64,000 bases of DNA from contig CP021423.1 of the NCBI GenBank assembly GCA_002162075.1, positions 372,001 to 436,000 of the forward strand, given 5' to 3'. The stretch's first letter is position 1. Every line of letters begins with the position of its first letter. This DNA is from Armatimonadetes bacterium Uphvl-Ar1. GTDB lineage: Bacteria; Armatimonadota; Fimbriimonadia; Fimbriimonadales; Fimbriimonadaceae. The notes beneath the pieces are model-generated. The model worked only from the letters and a program-made list of their open reading frames with translations. It had not been told where the DNA came from and did no database searches. Shown here in pieces: positions 1,894 to 49,836 of this stretch. The position numbers and the translations under genes were made by a program.

Positions 1894-3872
1894 ATGCGCA
1901 GATTTGTGGTGGTTGTTGTTGGTTTGAGTTTTATGGGATTGGCTCAGGCGACAATTGGGTTGGACGTTCGCGATGTGGTCGCGGCTCAGGGGCGGGGAGT
2001 GAGGGCTCAGCGCGGCTTGATTCAATTGCGACTGCAACGAAAATTGTGAATTGGCGGGCGGATGGCAAGATTACTTTTCAGATTCAAACAGTTGCGCGGG
2101 ATGGCAGGGTCGGGATGAAGTTGAACATTTGGGGATTTGGGACACCTGATCGGGAAGCTGGGGCACCGGGTTCGAGACCAGAGGCACCGAAGAGTTCTTT
2201 GACAAAAGTTGGGCGTTTGGTTGCGAGTATCCCAGTGTCAACGGCTCCAGCGAGTGGTTTTGAAGTCAAGCTGAAAGATTTTATGCCTTGGCCGACGAAG
2301 TTGGTGACGTTGGGCGGCGGGAGTTCTGCGGCACCGGGGATTTCTGCTTCGGTTCATTCTCAGAATTTGAAGGACGCTTTGGCTGAGATTGAGAAGTCCG
2401 GCACATTGAATTACACGGCTCAGTTGGTGGCGGATGATGGGGGGGCGAGTAACTGGGTAGTTTTTCAATATGGCGAGCCCAAACCTTCTGGGGCGGCTCC
2501 TGGAATTGAGATTGAGACACAGGCAGGTACGCCTGAGTTTCCGGCGACATGGGGGAAGGAGAGAACATTTAGTGATTCTAGTTTGCCGATGAATTTTCGG
2601 TTCACGGGGTTGCCGAGCGGGTCGAAGGTTTGGTTGCAGATTGCTCGTGATTCGTTTCATCCGGCGTGGTCATTTTTTGGGAACATCAAAAACGAGGTGG
2701 TTTGGCGTGAGGTGACAGGGGGAAAAATTGCGGTCACGGCAAAGGATTTGGTTGCCCAAAAATATCCGGCGGTTTTTGTGGCTCGGGTGGTGTGTTTGAC
2801 TCCGCAGGGAGATTTGGCAGCGATGCCTTCGGGGCAGATTAAGTTGACCAAGCAAGCGGTGCAGGTAGTTCAGCCAAGCAATTCTGGTCCGGAGAAAAAG
2901 TTGAGCTATACGGTCGAGCTGATCGGATGGGAGCCAGCTTATTTGGGGGATGCCTTTGATCAGTACCGGTTCGTCGTGGGGAGAAAGCTGGACGCAAAGA
3001 TTGAAGGAAATGTAACTGAGATCATTGGGAAAGCTCCGGCAGTTGGGGATAAGGTGTTTCTACCGCCGAGTGAGCCGAAGAAGGATGACCCTTGGTATAA
3101 AAAGGTGTTTAAGGCTGTTGCGACGGTGTTAGATTTTATTAAAATTGGTCTCCAGCAACTTTTCACTGGTCCGCAGAAAGGTGCTCAGATTCTTCTCTAC
3201 AATTTGTATAGGGCCTCTGCGCAAGGTCTTGGAATATCTAATGATCAAGCGGTCAAAACTTGGAACAAGGCGACGGATGTGTATTTAGCTCCGGGTCAGG
3301 CGGTTGATTACTTGCCCAGATATGTATCGAAGGGCAAAGACTATGTTGCGGCTAAGATTCTCGACGACTTGAATGTGAAAGATCCTAAGACTCGATCAGC
3401 CCTGTCAGGTCAATTGCGTGGAGTGATCGAATCTGAGATTTCAAAGCAGTCTTACCTTTCGGAAAGTTCGAGTCAGTTAATGGGATTGGCACCTGACCCC
3501 GATTTCGCCGTTCGACCGGGTTTGGCTTATGTTCGGGTGAAGGCGAGTCAGGTGGCGGGGTTGCCAGCAGATTATCGTCAGGCGGGTCCAGTGATTGATC
3601 TCAAGGTGGGCTGTATTTGGCAGAATGCGTCGTTGTTGGGGACGAGTCCTCAGTATGCAGATTTGTTCCAGCGGTCGTTTGCAGGGCCAACAATGGCTTC
3701 GGGTGAGACCATTATTTTGGCTATTCCTTTGGATTGGCATTGGAGTTACAAGAGTAATAAGGATAGTTGGAGGAACTCCTATGCTTATGCCCAGAAAGCG
3801 CGGTATATGCTGGACGGTAAGGAGGTCAAGGGTGATCTTGTTGGGAAAGCCTGGGGGACAACGCTTAAGTGA
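1894..3872 (+). pseudogene. Large exported protein of unknown function, frame broken near 1989-1997
   Basis: ATG 1894 starts a clean Sec signal peptide (MRRFVVVVVGLSFMGLAQA), but this frame stops at about 2047. The next frame stays open from there to 3872 for more than 600 residues. Adding one G in the run GGGGCGGGG (1989-1997) joins them into one protein continuing AQGAGSEGSARLDSIATATK. The body has no family I recognise: an N-terminal Ser/Pro/Gly-rich part, then 'YTVELIGWEPAYLGDAFDQYRF' and a lysine-rich amphipathic segment near residue 400. An exported protein is clear from the leader; its function is not. The break may be a sequencing error. Confidence 0.6.
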
Positions 3873-10349: not shown

Positions 10350-10411
10350 TTTAGGTTCAAAATCGTGGCTGCCGCTGTAGGATTCGAACCTACGACCCGC
10401 TGATTAACAGT
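10350..10411 (-). repeat. Left attachment site (attL): 62-bp copy of the tRNA-Asn 3' part
   Basis: Identical over 62 bp to 49,746-49,807. It contains the 3' part of tRNA-Asn from the anticodon loop through the encoded CCA plus 16 bases beyond. The match ends inside the anticodon loop, where the next base differs. Only the right copy belongs to a complete tRNA, so this copy is the element-derived or displaced half. Tyrosine recombinases commonly cross over in tRNA anticodon or T loops. Confidence 0.93.
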
Positions 10412-10580: not shown

Positions 10581-11726
10581 TTGATAACAGTGGCAAAGCA
10601 AAGAAGGCGTGAAAAGGGATCAGGCAGCATTTACAAGCGCGGATCAGTCTATGTGGCTCAAGTGCAGGATGGCTGGAAGGAGAACGGAAAACCCAGATAT
10701 CGCCAAGTGAGATGCAAATCTCAAGCCGAGGCCGTTCAAGCCCTTAGGGAATTCACTTCCTTGCTTGTACAAGGGAAAACCATTCCCAATCGACAAGGCC
10801 ACACCGTTTCTTCTTGGCTTGATTTATGGCTTGAAGAACATATCAAGGTCAATCGAGAGGTAAAGACATTTGAGTTCTATCGACTCATGGTTGAGAAACG
10901 CATAAAGCCTTACCTCGGGCGAATGGAGCTCCAGCGAGTTACTCCGATGGACGTAACAAGGCTCTTTAAGGCTATCGAGCAGGACGGAGCAACTGCAAAT
11001 ACTATCCACGCAGTCCGCCGCACTCTCCGAGCGGCATATGGCGTTGCAATAAAGTACGGCGAAGCACATGAGAACCCAGTGTCCAAAACATTTGCTCCCA
11101 AGGTTCGTCGCGAGAAAAAAGTATTTTTCACTGCCGAGCAAGTGCAACAACTCCTGCTTGCGCTTGAGGGGTCTCCTGTCGAGAGCCTCGTAAGATTTAC
11201 ATTAGCAACAGGGCTTCGCATTGGAGAGGTGACTGGACTGACCTGGGATAGTGTTGACCTCAATCAGAAGTCGATCTTAGTCCATTCTCAGTTACAGCGA
11301 GTTGGAACAAAGTTGATTCTGAAACCTCTCAAAACTGAAAAAAGCATCAGAACTATGCCACTTGTCGGACATTCTCTTGAAGCAGTATTGAAGGAGCGGA
11401 ATAGACTTGAAGTCGAACGGTATGAGAACGACCTTAATCTTGTCTTTCTTAATCCTTGGGGCAGACCATTCGATCCAAAATATGTGAACGATCGGCTTCA
11501 TGAAGCACTTGAAAGAGCCCAACTTCCTCGAACCGGGATGCACTCACTTCGACACTCCGCCGCAACATTCATGCTGATGGCAGGGTTGAATCTCCACCAA
11601 GTGAGCCGCTTTCTGGGTCACTCTCAAATTGCTCTCACTTCAAACCTCTACGGTCACGTTCTTGATAGCGCGATGCGGGAATCTGCCGAAAAGCTTCAAG
11701 AATCATATGGTGTCGTGACGATATGA
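10581..11726 (+). CDS. Tyrosine recombinase / phage-type integrase
   Basis: A 381-aa integrase with an N-terminal arm-binding region (residues 12-60), a core-binding SAM-like domain (about 75-160) and a catalytic domain. The catalytic residues are visible: Arg213 in 'TGLRIGE', a Lys near 251-254, His321 and Arg324 in 'HSLRHSAAT', His347 in 'GHSQ' and Tyr357 in 'SNLYGHV'. The start is TTG 10581 or GTG 10590. It sits 170 bp inside attL and reads inward. It would catalyse insertion into and excision from tRNA-Asn. Confidence 0.95.
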   Translation: MITVAKQRRREKGSGSIYKRGSVYVAQVQDGWKENGKPRYRQVRCKSQAEAVQALREFTSLLVQGKTIPNRQGHTVSSWLDLWLEEHIKVNREVKTFEFYRLMVEKRIKPYLGRMELQRVTPMDVTRLFKAIEQDGATANTIHAVRRTLRAAYGVAIKYGEAHENPVSKTFAPKVRREKKVFFTAEQVQQLLLALEGSPVESLVRFTLATGLRIGEVTGLTWDSVDLNQKSILVHSQLQRVGTKLILKPLKTEKSIRTMPLVGHSLEAVLKERNRLEVERYENDLNLVFLNPWGRPFDPKYVNDRLHEALERAQLPRTGMHSLRHSAATFMLMAGLNLHQVSRFLGHSQIALTSNLYGHVLDSAMRESAEKLQESYGVVTI

Positions 11727-12253: not shown

Positions 12254-13855
12254 ATGAGCGTCATCAGGAACCAAAGTACAAAGGGCATTTCGCAGTCCCA
12301 TTCCAATTTGAGAGGCACCTTGAGGAAGGCTGTTACTGGTGCCTTGATTCTTCTGTCAGTTGCTGCAAATTGTCAGCCGGTAGTTTCGGCAGACTCGGAT
12401 TATCTTAAAATTCGACTTGTACGGGCAAAAGAGATTCAAGCGGCAACATTCTGGAGCGCAAGTGGTACCGCTCAAGCACCTTACTTGACATCTCAAACAG
12501 CTCATGTTGTAGCCTATACCTACCGCCACATGATCGGCAACGATCTAAATGGCGACGCATCAAATGGAACTGGTGGAGGGGGTGGCGGTGGCATTAATCC
12601 TGAAGCTCCTCAATCCCTTGTCGAAGAAGAAGGTGGTATCGGTGATCCAGGTGGCGGAGGGCCAGGGGGTGGTGGGGGTGGCTCAACGATTGAGAACTAT
12701 TGGATTTCAATTCCAGGCACGAATAGTAATGGCGATCTCCAAGGGTTCATCGCCGATCCAAGTTTGACTTTTCAGGCATACACATACATTTCACTTCAGA
12801 ACATTCCAAACAACTTGCTTCTCGCATTGTCAACTTGGTGGTCTAGCACATCTTCAATCAAATCGGCTGGAGTCAGAGTTAAGTTATTGCCCGGGCAGGA
12901 AGTAACAGTTTGCTATGCAAGGCCCGCTCTCCCAATTTTGCCGAGCGGCGTTGGTCAGGTTATGGTAACCAAGGCGACCTTGGTTACAACTCCCGCAATT
13001 CCTCCGCAAACAGGATCGACTTCGGTTATGTCAGTTGGTCAACAAGAAGTTTGGTATTCGCTCAATCGAAAGAGCGGGATTGAAGATACGGCGGTCGATT
13101 CACGGAAAGGTTACGGGCAACCCAATCGAGAGGGCCAGTTCCCCGCTGATCCAAACGCCGAGCTTAGAAATATCAACTTTGGGGATTGGATTTTCAAAGG
13201 TGGGATGTTTGTCGGCAATATGCCCCAGAGTACAGGTGATCGAAGCGGAACAGCAAGGTTCCAATTGTGGGAACCAACGATTGAAACCCAAGTTCCTCGG
13301 ATGACCATCTTTACGGTCTATCAATACGGCAAGCCGTCTCATGTGAATGGTGCTATGACCATTGGACTTTACGGTCCCTTGCCAGGGCCAGATGTCTATA
13401 TTGGCGAAGCCGGCACAACATGGGCCAACAAGTGGGACATCACTCCCCGTGCGGCTATTCCAAGCGGTGGCAGCTTTGAGCAGAACAAGGATCCGTACAA
13501 GAAGTTCGTACTTGATGGTCTCACGGGAGCAGGTCTCATCTCTACAAACATTACAAAGGTCTATGACAAAATGCACCCCTCGCCAGGTAACCCGACATTA
13601 ATGTTCCCCAAAACGACTTGGGAGACAATCAACTATCCGGGTCTTTGTCTTGCACTCCACGACGAGCAAACGCTTGTAGATCAAGGATGGAGTGGCTGGC
13701 GATACTTTGTTGACAAAGAATTTCAGCCACTTGTTCAAGATGTAATTCCGACCGCGTTTCGTGACCTTGCTCCGAGACTGTGGCGATTCTACGTGACAGA
13801 CAGTAAAGAAGCCGGTGATTCAGCTTCATGGTTGCCAGGAGAATGGGTACCGTGA
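12254..13855 (+). CDS. Exported protein of unknown function, first gene of the Rhs locus
   Basis: Start ATG 12254 has AGGG eight bases upstream; ATG 12239 is an alternative. The N-terminus is a signal sequence after a basic stretch ('LRKAVTGALILLSVAANCQPVVSA'). Residues about 105-145 are Gly-rich with two runs of glycine, probably a flexible linker between two folded parts. The C-terminal 350 residues are of mixed composition and match no family I recognise. It overlaps the next gene by four bases and is separated from Rhs only by the peptidase gene, so it probably serves export, processing or display of the Rhs protein. That role is inferred. Confidence 0.6.
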   Translation: MSVIRNQSTKGISQSHSNLRGTLRKAVTGALILLSVAANCQPVVSADSDYLKIRLVRAKEIQAATFWSASGTAQAPYLTSQTAHVVAYTYRHMIGNDLNGDASNGTGGGGGGGINPEAPQSLVEEEGGIGDPGGGGPGGGGGGSTIENYWISIPGTNSNGDLQGFIADPSLTFQAYTYISLQNIPNNLLLALSTWWSSTSSIKSAGVRVKLLPGQEVTVCYARPALPILPSGVGQVMVTKATLVTTPAIPPQTGSTSVMSVGQQEVWYSLNRKSGIEDTAVDSRKGYGQPNREGQFPADPNAELRNINFGDWIFKGGMFVGNMPQSTGDRSGTARFQLWEPTIETQVPRMTIFTVYQYGKPSHVNGAMTIGLYGPLPGPDVYIGEAGTTWANKWDITPRAAIPSGGSFEQNKDPYKKFVLDGLTGAGLISTNITKVYDKMHPSPGNPTLMFPKTTWETINYPGLCLALHDEQTLVDQGWSGWRYFVDKEFQPLVQDVIPTAFRDLAPRLWRFYVTDSKEAGDSASWLPGEWVP

Positions 13856-14808
13856 GAACGCCCCTTTCTTCAATCGCTTTAGGGGTTGGGATTGTTGGAT
13901 TTTCCGGTCTGTGCGTCTATGCCTGGAAATTGCGACAAGATCAAGAGGCATCAACAAAGCTCATTCCTGTTCAGCAACTAGCCCAAGCGGAAACGCTCCC
14001 TGCCGACCACAAGAGAGAATTTTTCGGATCGTTTATCGAGAAGAACTCTCAGTCGGCAGATGAGAAGATTCAAGATGCCGTCACCTCGGCTCGAATGAGA
14101 CTTGCATATATGGACGCAAAGGAAAAGCCGAACGAAGCTCGAGAGCTCTTCCTTGAAGCCGAACAAAAGCACTCGGGTTCGGACGCCATGGATCCGAGCT
14201 TTGGCGCAATGCCTGATCAAGCCCGCTACCAAGCGATCAACTGCTTGATGATTGATGGGAAAACCGAGCAAGCGAGAAAAGAGTACTTGGCATTTCTCAA
14301 AGAGCGTCCCCTATCGCCTCTAGTGTTCGGGGTTCATAAACGACTTCTGAAGCTAAGAGCTGAGAGAGAATCTCGAGACGAGATTGATCGGCTTCTCCAA
14401 ATTGCGGTTGATAAGCAAGATGAGCACGGCAAACGAGAAATGGCACTCTGTGGCCCGCGGTGCATCGAAAAACTTGTTGAATTGAGCGGGGGAGAGCAGG
14501 TTCAACTGAGTGAAATCGAAAAGCAAGCGGGCACAACCCTCGATGGGACATCCATGAGCGGGATGGTCAAAGCACTTGGTGTTGCGGGGTTTCAAGCTGA
14601 AGGGCTGCTTGTTAACCACGCAGATTTCCAAACTCAAAAGCTGCCGTTTATCTGGCTTGACAAGGGCCACTACCTGCTCATCCACTCTCGCAAGAACAAT
14701 AAGTTCGTCGCCTATGACCCATTTATTCGGAATGATCGTGAGATCAAGATTCCGGAAGCAAACGCACAATTCAGTGCCACGATTTTGAAAATTTCAAACA
14801 AAAGATAA
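13852..14808 (+). CDS. Membrane-anchored C39-type (papain-like) peptidase
   Basis: GTG 13852 overlaps the upstream stop (GTGA) and has AGGAGA nine bases before it; in-frame ATGs at 13828 and 13843 are less well placed. An N-terminal membrane anchor ('SIALGVGIVGFSGLCVYAW') is followed by a helical TPR-like region and a C-terminal C39 domain. There 'MALCGPRCIEKL' holds the catalytic Cys, and 'GHYLLIHSRKNNKFVAYDP' holds the catalytic His and Asp. C39 enzymes cleave leaders, often at double-glycine sites, during export. Placed between an exported partner and Rhs, it may process one of them. Confidence 0.75.
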   Translation: MRTPLSSIALGVGIVGFSGLCVYAWKLRQDQEASTKLIPVQQLAQAETLPADHKREFFGSFIEKNSQSADEKIQDAVTSARMRLAYMDAKEKPNEARELFLEAEQKHSGSDAMDPSFGAMPDQARYQAINCLMIDGKTEQARKEYLAFLKERPLSPLVFGVHKRLLKLRAERESRDEIDRLLQIAVDKQDEHGKREMALCGPRCIEKLVELSGGEQVQLSEIEKQAGTTLDGTSMSGMVKALGVAGFQAEGLLVNHADFQTQKLPFIWLDKGHYLLIHSRKNNKFVAYDPFIRNDREIKIPEANAQFSATILKISNKR

Positions 14809-14823
14809 CTCAAGGAAACCAAG

Positions 14824-17800
14824 ATGATCGTTCAATTCGCAAACTCAAAGCTCCGACGACCGCTCTGCAATTTTTCTGCGGCGTTGATGCTGACCCTTGG
14901 GTTACCCATGAATCTATTTGCCCATGATCCGACTAAGCCCGTCGAAGTAAAGAAGGAGACTGCCAAGAAAGTCGAGACCCGCAAACTCAGCGACAAGGAA
15001 ATGGAAACACTTTCGGGTCGGTACTCCGGAAATCCTTACTATGCCGGGCAAGCAAAGTTTGATGTTGTTTACAAAGGCGTGAACCTACGGACAGGGAATT
15101 ATTCAACTTCGGCAACTGACCTGAGCTTTGAGGGAGGCTACGGCATTCCAGTGAATATCACCCGTTCGTATTCAGCGAACAACATTGATGAGGGTCCATT
15201 CGGTGTCGGCTGGACTCTCAGTGCGGATTTGCGGTCTACCGCCGGTGGACTTCTCAAAAGCAGTAAAGCCCCCGTGCGCTCGGTTCCGGTTGGAATGAAG
15301 CGACGGCCCTCTTCAGAAACCGATCCGAACATCCCCACCCAGCCGGTCGAAGCGGTAGTAGTCACGGATAGTGATGGGAAAGAAACCACGATTCAGCGCG
15401 ATGTGGATGGAATCCTTACCTCCCCGCCGTGGGATAAGAATGAGTATGAAACGGAGTACGAATACGTTAATGACGGGGCCGGGAATCTCTATTGGATTCT
15501 GAAGTCGAACAAGACGATGACCCCTGATGGAACGGTCTACCAGTACGAAAAGAAGGGGCACTACCCCAACGGTTCAAAGCCTTGGAATGATTCCAATGCG
15601 GTAGCCGAGCCGAACAACGTTTTGAAGCCGGTTTGGGTGCAAGATCGCCATGGGAACCAGACTAATTATGTCTATGGGACAACCGATGTGCAGTTCCAAA
15701 AGTCGAACGGGTTGGTCTACGAAAAGCCGCTCGTTGGCGTTACTATGCCGAACGGTCGGAATATGGAATTCACTTGGTCAGGAAACCGGGTGACCCAGAT
15801 TCGAGCGTTTTCAACTGGTGAAGAGCGGAAGGTCGTTTATGGTTACACTGGAGGTCAGATTTCGAGTGTTCAGCAAGTTCGTACTTTTACGGGTCAATCC
15901 CCGCAACCGGGCCGGATTACTCGATACGGATATTCGGGCGGACTGCTTTCATCCATGACTGATCCTCGGGGTTTAACTTCCTCGATTAACTACTACTATG
16001 CGCCAAACCAAGATGCGATGCGAGTCAAATACATATCTGAGCCAGGAGATAAACGTGCTTATTTCGGTGGAATTGAGTTTCCTGATGGGCCGGGCTATGT
16101 CTATAGCCAAGTGACCCAATACTATACTGCGCCATTTCCTGGACAATATTCTGTACCTGGAGATCATCCAACTCACATGTATTTCCTGAGTGGACAAGGA
16201 ATCGTAGAAGTTGCTACGGAAATGTTCATCCCGTCGGAGGACAGTATATATTCTGAATATCGGAAGTATCGCGAAGGCACAATGGATTTGATCGAAGTTA
16301 AGACCTTCGTCGATCCGCCTGCATACTCTTATCAGTCAACGTCTTACGATACATCGGATCACTACGGAACCATTACACAAACCGAATACAACTTTTTCGG
16401 TAATCCTCTCAGAGAAGTTCGAAAAGAGTACGACATTGAGAATTCTTCATGGATTCTAAAGCGAGAGTCCAAGACGGCAACCGCATATTGGGGTGAGAAC
16501 AAATACTTCCAACAAAAAGCGGTCAAGGTCACGGCCGGTAACGTCGAAAGAACTTCTTACACCGACTACTACGACAGCTCAGCTGCCCAAGGATCAAAGG
16601 GGCAAACATACCGAGTTTATGACACCAAGCACGCACAATTCACAAATGTAGGCGTAGCTCCTCCCCATGCAAGCGAAGACCCGCAGAACAACTATGCCTG
16701 GAAGTACACGATTGTTCCCTCCGATCTCAACAAGTATTCAGCGCAATTCCAATACGATTCCAAGGGCCGTCCAACCCAAGTTTGGAAGCTCCAAAAAGTT
16801 GTGGGCGGAGTTCATCAGTACGTCCGGACTCTGAGCGGATATGGAGCCGACGGTGCGCCTGCATATGGCAACGCCACGCAGGTCACCGAGGATTACATGG
16901 GTTCTAGCCCGAGAACGACTGAAACACTCGCGTTTGACCTGATGGGCAAAGCGATCCAAACCCGGGACGGGATGGGTCGGACGTATTCCACATCTTACGA
17001 TACAGATGGAAACGTCTTGAGCGTTGATCAAGGAGCGCAGAATGTTGTGAGTTACACTTACGGCACGACTGATGGCACCGCAGAAAACGGTCAACCGCTC
17101 AGCATCACCGATGGACTTAGTGGAGTCGAGCAAACAATTTCGTATATCCAATCCGGTGGAACGAAGGGCCTCCCCTTGTCAGTCTCAGAAGGGACGGGCG
17201 GCACTCCTTATTCCACCACAGAGTATGGCTATAACTCGGTTGGTGAGCGTTTAACTTCTACAATCACGACTCCAAATGGAACTACCAAGTATCGTTATGG
17301 AGGGTATTTGCAGGTCGGATTTGGTTACTCGCCACAACGGGTCTTTACGTTGATCAATAAGCAGAAACAGGTGGGAGGAATTTGGGAAGACAGCACCGAA
17401 GAGGTTCGCTATAAATTTGAAGTAACAGGTCGGCTAAAGCGTGTCGATTTTGCCCCAACTCCTCAAGATGGGCAAACCAATTACAATCTTCCGGCGAAGA
17501 GTTTTGCCTCGGCAATTTATGATTACGATGCAGGCGGACGAACTCTCTCCGTCAAGCACTATTGGAACCAGCTCAATACGACAAACGGAACTTACAATGT
17601 CGAAGCAATCAAAGGCGCGACGGCGGCGTTTGGACATCCGCTTGGTCTCAAAACGAGCACAACTTTCCTTTCGAAACTCTCGTCTGGCTCTCCTAGTTGG
17701 TCGGTGGATCGGACTGAAACCTACGCCTACGATGCAGACTTTGATTATCTGACGAGTGTAGATTACAACGATGGCCTGGCGAATGAGGTTCAGAGCTGGG

Positions 17801-18926
17801 GTTATGATGCGGCGGGTAACCGGGTGAGTGATTCGGCAAAGCCGGGGACATGGATATATGACAATTTGAACCGGATGGGTCAGTCTCCTATGGCGAGTTA
17901 CACTCATGATGCGGTTGGGAATCGCTTGACCAAAGTCTCGGGTGGGAACACGACGAGTTACGGTTGGGACGCGGTGAACCGGATGATTGAATCTGGTCCG
18001 CTAACGGGATCGCGTCACCACTACACCTACCGGGCGGATGGGATGCGGGTTCGGAAGGAGATTCCGGGTTTGGTTGAAAAGGTTTACTATGATGGTCAGA
18101 TGCCGGTTGAGACGTTTGAGGACTTCTCTACGGGTAGTGACAAGTTGACTCGGAATTTTGTGGGTGCGCGGGGATTGAGATGATGGAAACAACCACCGGA
18201 GGCAGTACAACTCAGGCGTATCCGTTGTATGATACACATGGGAATATGGTTGCGACTCTGAGCAAGAACACTGCTGGGACATCGTGGTCGCTCGGTAATG
18301 AGCGGAGCTATGATGTTTGGGGTTCGGTGCGTTCGGGAGCTGCTACGGGCGGGCCGAAGGGTCGTTATGTTGCGAATCTGGGTCATGTTCAGGATGATGA
18401 GAGCGGCTTGATTTATATGCGGGCGAGATATTACGAGCCGGAGACAGGGCGGTTTGTGAGTGAGGATAGAGTAATGGACGGTTCTAATTGGTATGTGTAT
18501 TGCAAAAATGCGCCAACTTTATTTGTAGACGAAAGTGGAAACAGTCCGACCGTTTACATTAACATGATACTCTTCACAGCCGGGTTCATTATTGGGCATA
18601 TTGTTGGAGTTACTATTGCTGTTCTCCTTCTGATGAGAAACAATCCTGATTATGTTGTCCAGAACACTGTTGTCAGGAACTTGTTCTTCATTGGTTTGGA
18701 GATACTAACCTTTCTTTCAGCCCTAACAATTCCAGGTGCTAAGGGAGAATTTGGATTCGCAGATAAAAGTTTAAAAGAGATAACAAAGACAATAGTAAAC
18801 TCAGTTCGACAAACTGGTTGGGGTCGACACGGTCTTGCCGCCGGTCTCGGATTCATGTTCGGAGTTATGTTTGGTGTCCTCAATGCGATGTATGATGCAT
18901 TCTTGTGGGAGATGGAGAACGAATAG
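14824..18926 (+). pseudogene. Rhs/YD-repeat polymorphic toxin, frame broken at 18170-18173
   Basis: ATG 14824 follows AAGGAAA. A Sec-type signal ('FSAALMLTLGLPMNLFA') leads into 'DVVYKGVNLRTGNYSTSATDLSFEGGYGIPVNITRSYSAN', a DUF6531-like entry, then about 1000 residues of YD repeats that form the Rhs cocoon. The frame stops at 18183 after 'NFVGARGLR'; one base over it continues 'EMMETTTGG...' to the core end 'RYYEPETGRFVSEDRVMDGSNWYVYCKN' and a hydrophobic tip ending at 18926. The duplicate at 19285-20237 has GGGGG where this copy has GGGG, so one missing G is shown directly. The tip has three hydrophobic segments and may act on membranes (inferred). Confidence 0.85.
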
Positions 18927-44084: not shown

Positions 44085-44810
44085 TTAGCTGATGACCCCT
44101 CGTAATTGATCCGGAAAGAAAACCAGCGTTTTTTCGTCATTCCAAGAGATATTTCCCGTTGGAATTCCCGTAACAGGACGGTAGTTTTGAAAAGCACCAA
44201 TTAAAGCCCCATAGGGCCTAAATCGGCTGACCTCAACCTCTTCTCCCGAGAAGGCAAGGAGAAGAAAGTTCCGGTTGTCGGTTGTGAGGAGTCCGATAAC
44301 GAGTTCAGACTCATAAGCCGAAATGACAATTGAGTCAAGCGGCGGCGTAGACATGTTTTGGAACAAGAGAACGGTGCCATGGGGAAAAAGAGGTGCCAAT
44401 TTATTACCATTAATGATGATAGCTCGATAGTCAGATGTGCCTGAACTGAGAGCTATCGGGCAGCGCCAGTGCGCCAGTTGTTCGGATTTCGGTTGACTCT
44501 CAAAGAATCCTTCGCAGTTAAAAGGTTCGAGCTTGAGGTAGGGCGCATTATTCACTTGTGAGAACGACGGAAGCTGTGTTGGGGAGTTCTCTTCTAGAAA
44601 ATACGGCATGGTGGCTTCGCTCCAGTGAGCTTTCGCCCAATCGGCGTACTCGTTCACCCACTTGGCGGATCGTTCTTCTTCAATATCGCGAATCACTGTA
44701 GCAGTAATTTCTGCATTCAGCGAGTTGGATAGATACTCAGCCAATTTGAGCCTTGACACTTTGGGCTTTTGGTTCATTCTCCAATTTTTTAGTACCTGAC
44801 CGTTTACCAT
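44085..44810 (-). CDS. Phage-type repressor: HTH plus degenerate S24/LexA-like domain
   Basis: A 241-aa protein, divergent from the primase gene. The N-terminal 60 residues look like an XRE-type HTH ('SRLKLAEYLSNSLNAEITATVIRDIEE'). The C-terminal part follows the S24 layout ('YRAIIINGNKLAPLFPHGTVLLFQ'), but the catalytic Ser of the usual GDSMxP is replaced in GNKLAP, and no Lys is present where the general base should be ('NRNFLLLAF'). It probably represses the divergent replication gene but should not self-cleave in the SOS response. Confidence 0.65.
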   Translation of the reverse strand: MVNGQVLKNWRMNQKPKVSRLKLAEYLSNSLNAEITATVIRDIEEERSAKWVNEYADWAKAHWSEATMPYFLEENSPTQLPSFSQVNNAPYLKLEPFNCEGFFESQPKSEQLAHWRCPIALSSGTSDYRAIIINGNKLAPLFPHGTVLLFQNMSTPPLDSIVISAYESELVIGLLTTDNRNFLLLAFSGEEVEVSRFRPYGALIGAFQNYRPVTGIPTGNISWNDEKTLVFFPDQLRGVIS

Positions 44811-44840
44811 ATGGAGATTGTACCTTCACATTGATGTGGA

Positions 44841-44852
44841 AAAAACGTTTTT
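44841..44852. promoter_or_regulatory. Candidate repressor operator (12-bp palindrome)
   Basis: A perfect palindrome AAAAACGTTTTT lies midway between the divergent repressor and primase genes, a few bases before a TTGACG hexamer. Its position suits control of the primase promoter by the repressor. Only one copy is seen, so the assignment is tentative. Confidence 0.35.
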
Positions 44853-44883
44853 CATATTGACGCAAAAGTGGTATTACGAAATT

Positions 44884-47325
44884 GTGGACACGTTTCAACG
44901 GGTTTGTGGGGCCTTAGGGGTGGAGGCGAAGGGTCGGGAAGTTCGGTGTAACTGTCCGGCGCACGGCGGGGATTCGCAGAGTTTGAGTGTGCGGGAGTTG
45001 CCGGACGGGAAGGTGCAGATCACTTGCTTTAGCCAGCGGTGCGAGCGGGATGCGATTCTGGCGGCGGTGGGCCTGACGTGGCAGGATTTACTCCCGGACA
45101 ACACAATCCACCGGCACGGGGTGAAGCGGCGGGCGAGTAAACCGACCGACAAGTGGACCCAGGAGCGGATCGGGGGTGAAGATGTATTTGTGAAGTGGGA
45201 GTTGGTATGTGCTTACTTGTATCTCGATGAGCAGGGGAATTTGCTTTATGAAAAGCTCAGGTACCGGCCGGGGGAGAAGTACCGGAACGCGCCGGAGATG
45301 GCGAAGAAGCAGAAGAGCTTTGCGTTTTCGCGGAAGGCGGCGAACGGGAATGTGATTTGGGGGATGGATGGGGGGTGGCACGAGTTCAACCCTAAGCGGC
45401 GGCGGTGGGAGTACCTGAGAAACGAGTCGCAGCATCGGGTGGATGAGAAGCCGGTGGATGGGGCGGAGTGGTTTGATGCGCCGAGGCGCGTGCTTTATGA
45501 CTTGCCGATGCTCGTGGCGGATTTGCAGAGCGGGGTGAAAGAGGTTTGGGTCTGTGAGGGGGAACCGGATGCGGGGGTGCTCCGGCGATCGCTGGGGATG
45601 GCGGCGACGACGGCGGATTCGGGAGCGGGGACATGGCGGCGGGAGTATACGCAGTTCCTGGCGAAGTTTGAGGTGGTCGTGATTGTGGCGGATCGGGATT
45701 TACCGGGGCTGAAAGGGGCGATCCAGAAGCGGGATGCCATTTTGGCGGTGGATCCGGCCCCGGTGGTGCGGGTGGTGCTTCCGGGAGAAGGAAACGACGC
45801 GGAGGAGTTTGTGCTCAAAGGGGGCGTGCGGGAGGGATTTGTTGAGATTGATCCGGAGGCGGAAGTCGCGAAGCTGACTGAATCCTCTCCCCCGAACCCC
45901 CCTCTCCCGGTTGACGAGAATGGGTCGTCAGGGTTTGCACGGGAATCATTTTGGTTCAACGATGTGGAATTGGCGGAGGCGTTTGTGGATGCGCATGGGG
46001 ATCGGCTTCGGTTTTGCGCGAAGTTTGGCTTTTGGCTTCGGTGGACGGGGGCGTATTGGGCGGAGGATCAGAACGCGGGGGAGGGGTTTCTTGATGAGTG
46101 GCGCAAGTATGCACGGGTCCAGGAGCGCGTGGGGCATAAGATGATCGAGAGCGAGAAGTACGGGGAGAAGTTTTGCAAAAAAATTGATGGGCAGATTAAG
46201 CGGAATTTGAGTTCGACCGGGGTGTCTTCGGTTGAGGGGTTGGTGAAGCGGATTCACCCGGTGCCAGTGAGTCCGGATCAGTTGGACCAGGAGCTTGATT
46301 ACTTGCCGGTGGCGAACGGGACGATCGATTTGCGGCGGGGGGTTTTGGTGCCAGCGGATCCGGCGCACCTTTTTACGGGATGCGTGAATTTGATTTACGA
46401 CGAGAATGCGGATTGTCCGGAGTGGATCAAGTTTCTCGACGAGTCGCTGGGGAGTCCGCAGATGACCGAGTATATGCGGATGGTGGTCGGCTACTTGTTG
46501 ACGGGGCGAACGAGCGAGCAAAAGTTTTGGTTTTTCTATGGTCCGCCGAGGAGCGGGAAGGGGACGTGCATTCGGATATTGCAGAAGTTGATGGGGAATT
46601 TGTCGGTGGTTTTGCAGAAGCAATTTATTATGAAGTCGAATTTTCCGGTGACGATTGCGGAACATTGGGCGAGGGCGAAAGGGAAACGGCTCATGGTGAT
46701 CAACGAGGTGGATTCTCGCGACCGGTGGGATGAAGCGAAGTTGAAAGAAGTCACCGGCGAGGATATGATCAATGCGCGGAAGCTGAATGAGAACTCTTAT
46801 GATTTCTTTCCGACGTTTAAGATGCTGGCGGTGGGGAATGAGAAGCCGAGGGTTCGGGGTGAGGATGATGCGTTTTGGACGCGGGTGTTGCCGGTCGAGT
46901 TTCCAAATTCGAGGGTGGGGAAGTTTCAGGATCAGAAGCTCGGGGAGACGTTGGAGCGTGAGTTACCGGGGATTTTGCTTTGGGCGGTGAGTGGGGCGAA
47001 GGATTGGTATGAGAAGGGCCTGCCAACTCCGGAAGAAGTTCAAGCACATTTAGACGAATATAAACGATCAAGTGATACGATTCGTAAATTTTTGGTGGCG
47101 TGTACGGATTATAAAACAGGCTTCACGATTGGCGGACAAGAGTTGTTTGAAGCGTACGAGAAATACAATAGGAAAATCGGTAATAAATTTTATTTGAATA
47201 AGAATGACTTTGGTCTGAAAGTAAAACTTAGGACGGATGTTAAGTATAAAAAAGTTGAGAAGGGAATGAAGTTGATCGACCATGCTCTTAAATTTGAAGA
47301 GGAGTGGGATTATGATGCGGAGTAG
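44884..47325 (+). CDS. Phage/plasmid primase-helicase (P4 alpha/D5 type)
   Basis: About 813 aa. An N-terminal zinc-binding primase motif ('CNCPAHGG...CFSQRCERDAILAAVGLTWQDLL') is followed by a TOPRIM-like part ('VWVCEGEPDAGVLRRSLG...VVIVADRD'), then a D5/P4-type superfamily 3 helicase with Walker A 'GPPRSGKGT' and Walker B 'LMVINEVDSRDRWD' before 'PTFKMLAVGNEKPRV'. GTG 44884 fits the family N-terminus; TTG 44818 would overlap the regulatory region. It would drive autonomous replication of the element. Its G-rich codon use is like the host flanks, unlike the island genes to its left. Confidence 0.88.
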   Translation: MDTFQRVCGALGVEAKGREVRCNCPAHGGDSQSLSVRELPDGKVQITCFSQRCERDAILAAVGLTWQDLLPDNTIHRHGVKRRASKPTDKWTQERIGGEDVFVKWELVCAYLYLDEQGNLLYEKLRYRPGEKYRNAPEMAKKQKSFAFSRKAANGNVIWGMDGGWHEFNPKRRRWEYLRNESQHRVDEKPVDGAEWFDAPRRVLYDLPMLVADLQSGVKEVWVCEGEPDAGVLRRSLGMAATTADSGAGTWRREYTQFLAKFEVVVIVADRDLPGLKGAIQKRDAILAVDPAPVVRVVLPGEGNDAEEFVLKGGVREGFVEIDPEAEVAKLTESSPPNPPLPVDENGSSGFARESFWFNDVELAEAFVDAHGDRLRFCAKFGFWLRWTGAYWAEDQNAGEGFLDEWRKYARVQERVGHKMIESEKYGEKFCKKIDGQIKRNLSSTGVSSVEGLVKRIHPVPVSPDQLDQELDYLPVANGTIDLRRGVLVPADPAHLFTGCVNLIYDENADCPEWIKFLDESLGSPQMTEYMRMVVGYLLTGRTSEQKFWFFYGPPRSGKGTCIRILQKLMGNLSVVLQKQFIMKSNFPVTIAEHWARAKGKRLMVINEVDSRDRWDEAKLKEVTGEDMINARKLNENSYDFFPTFKMLAVGNEKPRVRGEDDAFWTRVLPVEFPNSRVGKFQDQKLGETLERELPGILLWAVSGAKDWYEKGLPTPEEVQAHLDEYKRSSDTIRKFLVACTDYKTGFTIGGQELFEAYEKYNRKIGNKFYLNKNDFGLKVKLRTDVKYKKVEKGMKLIDHALKFEEEWDYDAE

Positions 47326-47333
47326 CGATGTGC

Positions 47334-47605
47334 CTGCAGACGTTCTGCAGACCTACGAGACCTTCGCCATGCATGCTTTCTGCAGACCTGGATTTTGGAT
47401 TTTAGGTTTGGATGCAGGCCCTGCAGACCTTTTGGGGGATCTTACGGGGGTGCGGGGGCGTGCGCGCGCGTGCTTGCGTGTACACACGCTTGCGCGTGTG
47501 CGCAAAAAACTCATTCTAGGTCTGCAGGGTCTGCAGGTTCGGTTCATTTTGGGCATTTCGAGGTCTGCAGGAAGTCTGCAGCATAGGTTCAATCTTGGTC
47601 TGCAG
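47334..47605. repeat. Mirror-image iteron array around a hairpin: candidate replication origin
   Basis: Four CTGCAGAC(C/G) sites (47334, 47345, 47380, 47421) lie left of a 20-bp imperfect hairpin of alternating G/C and T/G (arms 47461-47480 and 47485-47504, loop TACA, followed by A6). Five (G/A)GTCTGCAG sites in the opposite orientation (47519, 47528, 47562, 47573, 47597) lie on the right. The block follows a primase-helicase, as origins do in P4-like elements. An open frame through it is ascribed to the repeats. Confidence 0.65.
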
Positions 47606-47640
47606 GGAGGTTGCAGGATGGTTTTGGATGAGGTAGCTTT

Positions 47641-47901
47641 ATGAATGCGTGGGATCGCAATGAGTTGGCTCGGTCTCTAGTGGTGAAGCTGAAAGAGTTT
47701 GATGCGGATTTGATTCGGGTGGGGGTTGGGCTTGAGTTTTGGCTTCGGGGGGAGTTGTGGCGTCGCGAGCTTGCGGAGGCGACGCGGAAGGTTTTGGTCG
47801 AGGCGGGTTATTTGCCGCTTCGCCGAGTTGATGATGTGTTGATGGGTGATGCTTTGAGGGCGACGGTGAAGGAGATGTTCCCATGCAAAGAATCAGAATA
47901 G
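47641..47901 (+). CDS. Hypothetical phage-type protein, 86 aa
   Basis: ATG 47641 follows GAGG at a good distance. Sequence 'MNAWDRNELARSLVVKLKEFDADLIRVGVGLEFWLRGELWRRELAEATRKVLVEAGYLPLRR' is helical and acidic/basic, with no family I recognise. Its end overlaps the next gene. G-rich codon use matches the primase, so it belongs to the same phage-like block. Confidence 0.55.
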   Translation: MNAWDRNELARSLVVKLKEFDADLIRVGVGLEFWLRGELWRRELAEATRKVLVEAGYLPLRRVDDVLMGDALRATVKEMFPCKESE

Positions 47902-49282: not shown

Positions 49283-49468
49283 ATGAACACGACCAATGAA
49301 CAAGGAACATTGTTGAGTGATCGGAATACCCGGTTGAAGCCGAGGAAAAAATGGGAAGAAGAGAGCTTAGAACAAGGTCCTTGTAGCTGCCTTGTTCAGT
49401 GGGTACGTCAGCGAATTCACTTCATCTCGGTTCCTCGAATAGTCAGCATGAAGAGGTTGTGCTCGTGA
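49283..49468 (+). CDS. Small protein, 61 aa, coupled to excisionase
   Basis: ATG 49283 lies one base after the upstream stop and its TGA overlaps the GTG of the next gene (GTGA). This double coupling is the main reason to believe it is translated. The sequence is basic in the N-terminal half and hydrophobic near the end; no family recognised. Confidence 0.45.
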   Translation: MNTTNEQGTLLSDRNTRLKPRKKWEEESLEQGPCSCLVQWVRQRIHFISVPRIVSMKRLCS

Positions 49469-49659
49469 AAATTGATACTGGAGATAAGCTTGCGTACAGT
49501 GTAAGACAAGCCGCTGAATTATTGTCAATTTCGAGGAGTCAGATGTACGAGATGATCAATGCCGGAAAAATCGGCTCAATAAAAATTGGTCGGTCAAGAC
49601 GAATTACATCAAGGCAGCTAAACGAGTACCTTGCTGACCGGGAAAAGGAAGATGCCTAA
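49465..49659 (+). CDS. Excisionase (HTH_17/MerR-like)
   Basis: GTG 49465 overlaps the preceding stop and follows AAGAGG. The 64-aa protein 'KLAYSVRQAAELLSISRSQMYEMINAGKIGSIKIGRSRRITSRQLNEYLADREKE' is a canonical excisionase-family DNA-binding domain. Its place 100 bp inside attR, next to arm-site repeats shared with the integrase end, makes it the best candidate for the element's Xis. Confidence 0.82.
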   Translation: MKIDTGDKLAYSVRQAAELLSISRSQMYEMINAGKIGSIKIGRSRRITSRQLNEYLADREKEDA

Positions 49660-49702: not shown

Positions 49703-49748
49703 AAAGAAAACCACCTTCTGAACTCAGATGGTGGTTTTCTTTCTTTTT
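49703..49748. terminator. Strong intrinsic terminator inside attR
   Basis: A 13-bp stem (49703-49715 with 49730-49742) and an inner 5-bp stem TCTGA/TCAGA form a long hairpin followed by CTTTTT. It ends the excisionase operon and can also act on the other strand because of the matching A tract. Confidence 0.8.
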
Positions 49749-49807
49749 AGGTTCAAAATCGTGGCTGCCGCTGTAGGATTCGAACCTACGACCCGCTGAT
49801 TAACAGT
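49746..49807 (-). repeat. Right attachment site (62-bp direct repeat within tRNA-Asn)
   Basis: Identical to 10350-10411. It spans the 3' part of the intact tRNA-Asn gene from the anticodon loop through CCA and 16 bases beyond. Together the copies delimit an element of about 39.4 kb that leaves a complete tRNA at its right side. Confidence 0.93.
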
Positions 49808-49836
49808 CAGCTGCTCTACCACTGAGCTAAGCGGCA
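49762..49836 (-). tRNA. tRNA-Asn (anticodon GTT)
   Basis: Complete cloverleaf on the minus strand: acceptor TGCCGCT/AGCGGCA, D arm GCTC/GAGC, anticodon stem GCTGA/TCAGC with loop CTGTTAA (anticodon GTT), T arm GTAGG/CCTAC, encoded CCA at 49762-49764. The integration site of the island. Confidence 0.96.

Follow-up and report, generated by a model that had tools for sequence, protein, structure and literature searches.

Mirror-ordered iterons behind a P4-family primase-helicase form a probable replication origin of an integrative element

An array of short inverted repeats lying behind a P4-family primase-helicase gene, at 47334-47616 of the window (the whole 64,000-nucleotide stretch of DNA that was analyzed), is very probably a functional replication origin, as judged from its sequence. 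In the complete explanation, which we consider likely, this array is the origin of an integrative element and the adjacent primase-helicase is its initiator. A sequence-only reading of this DNA had proposed a probable origin of replication, and this is still the best-supported interpretation, since the same layout, built from other units, is found behind related primases, including those of plasmids.

The two sets of units flank a central region in opposite orientation. The left arm (47334-47428, + strand) contains four copies of CTGCAGAC, which a search of the window placed at 47334, 47345, 47380, and 47421, and the right arm (47520-47605, - strand) contains five copies of its reverse complement, GTCTGCAG, at 47520, 47529, 47563, 47574, and 47598, followed by a shorter unit copy, GGTTGCAG, at 47609-47616. 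These exact positions confirm the earlier description of four units pointing one way and five the other around an alternating core. Neither 8-mer has a further copy within the 64 kb, and all 5 exact matches of the 10-mer CTGCAGACCT in the 2.99-Mb genome lie inside this array. The mirror order that had been described stood up in that none of 100 shuffles reached the score of the array, but the spacing of the units is variable, and the array is thus not strictly regular. The motif AGGTTC(AA), sometimes in the form AGGTTC-N4-GAACCT, was also seen at window position 47585, in L029, L030, L032, and L033, and in the arms of the second copy of the array described below; it recurs in the arms of host-family loci regardless of the unit and is possibly a host-factor site.

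Between the arms lie three G5 tracts (47434-47457, + strand; G tracts are present in the second copy too), the core (47458-47504), and an A-rich stretch (47505-47519) that is possibly where unwinding starts. The core consists of consecutive alternating purine-pyrimidine runs of 16, 15, and 14 nt, which are the three longest in the window. Its GC content is 0.61 compared with 0.50 for the locus, so that the AT-rich center of a SaPI/PICI-type origin is absent here. With its long alternating tract and low predicted B-Z threshold, the core looks by sequence like a Z-DNA-forming stretch; a two-state model with textbook parameters gives an estimated threshold of sigma about -0.035, compared with a background median of -0.062.

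The first unit begins 9 bp after the stop codon (47325) of the P4-family primase-helicase gene (44818-47325, + strand), in agreement with the earlier claim that the array directly follows a P4-type primase-helicase; the true start of the gene is probably downstream of the TTG at 44818. The protein matches TIGR01613 (primase_Cterm, 221.3 bits, curated cutoff 108.7), D5_N (86.9, cutoff 22.4), DUF5906, and the PHROG annotation "DNA primase." Foldseek, used with an AF2 model, and profile searches led to D5-type primase-helicases, and the profile search also matched PDB 7ola, which we take to be SaPI5 Rep. The AF2 model is confident mainly from residue 360 onward and ends in a winged helix (residues 735-805; 47077-47289, + strand), a block of helices and a beta hairpin with a pLDDT of about 73-89, in which the recognition helix is predicted at about 47200-47226. 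By analogy with related initiators, it is fairly likely that this C-terminal domain binds the units, and binding through the N terminus of the primase is less likely than binding through the winged helix.

Recurrence of the arrangement behind related primases, a comparison that the sequence-only reading had pointed to, was assessed at loci gathered from primases of the host phylum and from IMG/VR. Arrays were scored with 8-mers (one mismatch allowed) by comparing their left-forward/right-reverse order with that of dinucleotide shuffles, and a locus passed when at least 5 concordant units lay at 0 to +350 after the primase stop. Mirror arrays passed at 42/108 primase loci (control windows 3/110, 3/110, and 3/107) and at 31 of the 80 loci of a separately gathered, deduplicated set (controls 1/88 and 0/74), with the two viral sets sharing one collection and having overlapping query families. 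When both sets are taken together, mirror arrays with other units lie behind 73 of 188 P4-family primases, compared with 0-3% for controls. The units and cores were delimited automatically, and some contain one odd copy. A single-piece search over -260 to +340 gave 34/109 compared with 8/109 in the control; its power was lower, so the 350-nt window was used. When arrays of at least 6 copies were sought without an imposed order (n = 76), 23 were perfect mirrors, 1 was purely one-directional, and 52 were mixed, many of the latter being mirrors with one odd copy.

At the other 115 of the 188 related primases, no array passed at 0 to +350, and a few of these carry an array within the gene itself, at its 3' end; in L049, L051, L061, and L065, mirror arrays were seen within the 3' coding end, past the winged helix. 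Among the closest loci, the array passes at G015, G017, G018, and G065 and is weaker at G092 and G072; none was seen at G066. The objection foreseen in the sequence-only reading, that homologous elements might keep the primase and lack the repeats, applies in part: the closest relatives mostly keep the array, whereas many distant ones have no detected array. Similarity of the units and similarity of the recognition helices were also compared across loci, and co-evolution of the two was rejected as a candidate. Among the first 32 loci a correlation was seen (partial r 0.205, p 0.005), but helicase windows were correlated with the units too, so that the signal is not specific to the recognition helix, and the correlation was not confirmed in the extended set of 57 loci (r 0.063, p 0.11).

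Arrays of the same layout but with other units occur elsewhere in this genome and in the host family and phylum, as well as in prophages from IMG/VR and on circular plasmids. On pSINAC02 (circular, 39 kb, encoding ParA/ParB and no other annotated Rep), the array lies right after the primase, and the GC skew of this plasmid shows no turn at the array. Arrays were seen by eye on pPL62-4 and on a Gemmatirosa plasmid; in the latter (L343, the 1.1-Mb plasmid 1 of Gemmatirosa kalamazoonensis), inverted GGGAGG/GGACGG-type units surround CATGCGCGCACGCGCACGCAC behind the primase stop at 3329. No array was found after the primase at phage loci L079 and L080 or on plasmids L076 and L078. From its distribution over plasmids, prophages, and integrative elements in several phyla, the mirror-array origin looks like a general origin type for P4-family primases.

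The same genome contains a second module (contig 1944140-1950015; loci L021, L027, and L028) that adjoins a tRNA-Leu (1942451-1942537). Its primase is intact and 86% identical to the one in the window, and the stops that the search reported for it fall upstream of its start. Directly behind this primase is an array with the same position and geometry (6+/6- at one mismatch) and a homologous core, in which the units have all changed to GTGACGAC. Between the two primases, 5/255 residues differ in the helicase and adjoining segment (516-770), compared with 11/36 in the winged-helix end (771-806; Fisher p 6.5e-8). Because D5_N (26%) and the linker likewise diverge, and the helicase part also has few synonymous changes, this uneven divergence partly reflects mosaic descent and not selection. 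Two co-resident copies with the same geometry and different units make a clean pair for origin specificity and compatibility. No repeat of the tRNA-Leu end was found up to 2006000, and the far end of the second element was not found in that interval. Several 83-97-bp exact repeats, 1.3-5.8 kb apart, were seen at contig 1951283-1957340, upstream of the second primase.

Cores of the first viral set were AT-richer than their own loci in 18/18 cases (median shift -0.18, p 7.6e-6), and this was so for 25 of the 26 cores of the second set; the exceptions with a GC-rich core are the window, the second copy, and G092 (GC 0.61-0.66). The longest alternating run exceeded expectation (p <= 0.05) in 14/31 first-set and 13/26 second-set cores (27/57 together), compared with 2-3% of control windows (Fisher 2e-13 and 3e-13 for the first and second set, respectively), the idea of an alternating core having been raised by the first set and tested on the second. 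This excess holds independently of base composition, and the recurring tracts are mostly Z-prone. Most cores without an alternating tract are plainly AT-rich, and such a tract therefore cannot be essential to the origin class. A core motif, CATAA[CG]CG, that had been picked by eye and post hoc in the first cores had 1 match in 26 new cores and was dropped.

The sequence-only reading had placed a 20-bp hairpin at the center of the array. The fold is real, but it has 13+5 bp separated by a 2x2 internal loop, with an energy that is unremarkable both for its composition (z -1.46) and for alternating sequence (z -1.45). The same origin might use its core as an extruded cruciform or hairpin, for example as a priming or loading structure, and the folding of the window core, as well as the cores of L086, L087, and L306, which fold better than alternation alone predicts, would be consistent with this. 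We consider such a role unlikely, as the folding energy of the 27 alternating cores equals that of purine/pyrimidine-preserving shuffles (mean z -0.03), the core of the second copy gives a z of +0.30, and CA-rich tracts such as that of L232 barely self-pair. Because the shuffles fold as well as the real cores, it is alternation and not self-complementarity that recurs, and because hairpin strength beyond alternation is not conserved, Z-DNA propensity fits the data better. For the central feature, "Z-prone alternating tract" is accordingly a better description than "hairpin." A terminator was also rejected, since on the + strand the hairpin is followed by A and not by T.

Two further readings assign the region a different role. 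The one to which we give least credence holds that the region encodes a small basic protein whose codons are the repeats. An open frame of 120 codons (47282-47644) crosses the array, and L021, L029, L030, L033, and L070 likewise have one open frame; however, some + frame stays open in 18-22% of shuffles, none of the three + frames is open in L131, L232, L273, and L306, the differences between the cores of the window and the second copy are distributed 11/9/6 over the codon positions with no third-position excess, and no family match was obtained. Conserved coding sequence, which had been named beforehand as grounds for giving up the origin, thus finds no support in the closed frames of several loci or in the codon positions. 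It is also quite improbable that the units are operators of a transcriptional regulator of small downstream genes, with no origin present. Inverted sites suit dimeric regulators, and a small ORF (47641-47901, + strand) directly follows the array; beginning at 47745, the DNA is 88% identical to that of the second element. However, the arrays track P4-family primases across many elements and plasmids while the downstream genes vary, and with 9-12 copies spread over about 280 bp to either side of a core they are laid out like the tested SaPI/PICI origins (PMC6092414).

In the mechanism that we propose for the array as a replication origin, 47334-47616 would be used after excision of the element, with the adjacent P4-family primase-helicase as initiator. 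The C-terminal winged helix would bind the 8-9-bp units. Each of the oppositely oriented arms would collect one hexamer, and the two helicases would then face each other across the core. This arm-wise loading is proposed because the C-terminal domains of SaPI Rep and Cch2 bind iterons downstream of their genes, and loading of a double hexamer is suggested by homology. Under negative supercoiling, the alternating tract of the core might flip to Z-DNA, leaving unpaired B-Z junctions beside A-rich DNA, so that the core would open through this flip rather than through AT-richness. We put forward Z-DNA opening as a tentative mechanism, and it is a similarly speculative proposal that a widespread subclass of P4-family mirror-iteron origins opens by a supercoil-driven B-Z transition and not by an AT-rich element. 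If this were true, initiation would respond to DNA topology, for instance to how supercoiled the excised circle is, and not to base composition, and a functional Z-prone tract would make this a natural origin opened by Z-DNA. A search of mainly open-access literature, which did not extend to the principal SaPI origin papers, turned up no description of a Z-prone core in an origin of the iteron type.

The array is carried by a 39.5-kb element (10350-49807) in a tRNA-Asn, bounded by a 62-bp exact direct repeat of the 3' part of the tRNA that a repeat search placed at the left end (attL, 10350-10411) and in the tRNA-Asn at 49762-49836 (attR, 49746-49807). The element encodes a tyrosine integrase (10581-11726, + strand; PF00589, E 2.8e-26) and, adjoining attR, an excisionase-type HTH protein (49399-49659, + strand; HTH_17, TIGR01764). 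Next to the primase is the gene for a divergent protein (44085-44810, - strand), a probable regulator that had no matches in Pfam, NCBIfam, or PHROG; it has a homologue in the second element, where DNA homologous to its gene lies upstream of the second copy. Between 28267 and 43691, genes for type III-like restriction, an N6/N4 methylase, and a UvrD-type helicase were seen together with ArdC-like, AAA_15/OLD-TOPRIM nuclease-like, and DUF2130 proteins, and this cargo looks like defense/anti-defense. Also within the element, at 13828-18183, a protein with a Peptidase C39 domain precedes one of 1119 aa that has DUF6531/RHS repeats. No packaging gene was identified among the element genes scanned, and only tRNAs reach the gathering level in Rfam. 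PICIs are small phage-inducible islands with a characteristic gene order and phage-dependent transfer. An integrase, an excisionase, and a tRNA site are present in the window element, but with its size of 39.5 kb and its restriction/ArdC/OLD-like cargo it is no typical PICI, and the element as a whole was not filed as one. In the genus relatives G087, G088, G089, and G091, whose genomes are without the window-type primase, parts of the tRNA-Asn end are repeated at a distance of about 8-24 kb from the tRNA, which suggests that other elements occupy this site.

In satellite phage P4, the alpha protein gene is accompanied by ori/crr. The window resembles this organization in having a P4-family primase-helicase (TIGR01613) beside iterons; in the window, a single compact mirror array comes after the gene. 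Iteron plasmids of the RK2, R6K, and P1 type use direct repeats, an AT-rich DUE, and DnaA with loading of the host DnaB. They share with the window short repeated initiator sites beside an opening region, whereas the arms of the window array are inverted and its proposed initiator is a helicase in its own right. SCCmec Cch2 is a helicase of the D5 type. Its C-terminal domain on its own binds repeats located downstream of the gene, and Cch2 requires direct and not inverted repeats (PMC7581432); unlike the window, its putative origin is described with neither a mirror array nor an alternating core.

The layout, which the sequence-only reading did not recognize from a known element, matches that of the SaPI/PICI origins (SaPIbov1, SaPI5, and E. 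coli EcCICFT073), which likewise lie directly 3' of the gene for a self-loading primase-helicase (PMC6092414, PMC7581432). In PICI origins, which lie 3' of rep, two iteron sets flank an AT-rich region (PMC6092414), and SaPI Rep binds downstream iterons via its C-terminal domain (PMC7581432). As in the window, their two sets of short iterons flank a central region that is proposed to melt, and the unit sequence varies between elements. Origins of this type are also characterized by rep plus ori being enough for autonomous replication. The window differs in its GC-rich, alternating core, where theirs is AT-rich, and in its 39.5-kb host element with restriction-type genes, which is no typical PICI. 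Because the location, the inverted iteron sets, and the type of initiator match, and the AT-rich core does not, we conclude that the window origin would work in the same way as a PICI origin, of whose layout it is a variant. The layout itself was already known; what is new is the GC-rich core of the window together with an alternating purine-pyrimidine tract that recurs in nearly half of the cores.
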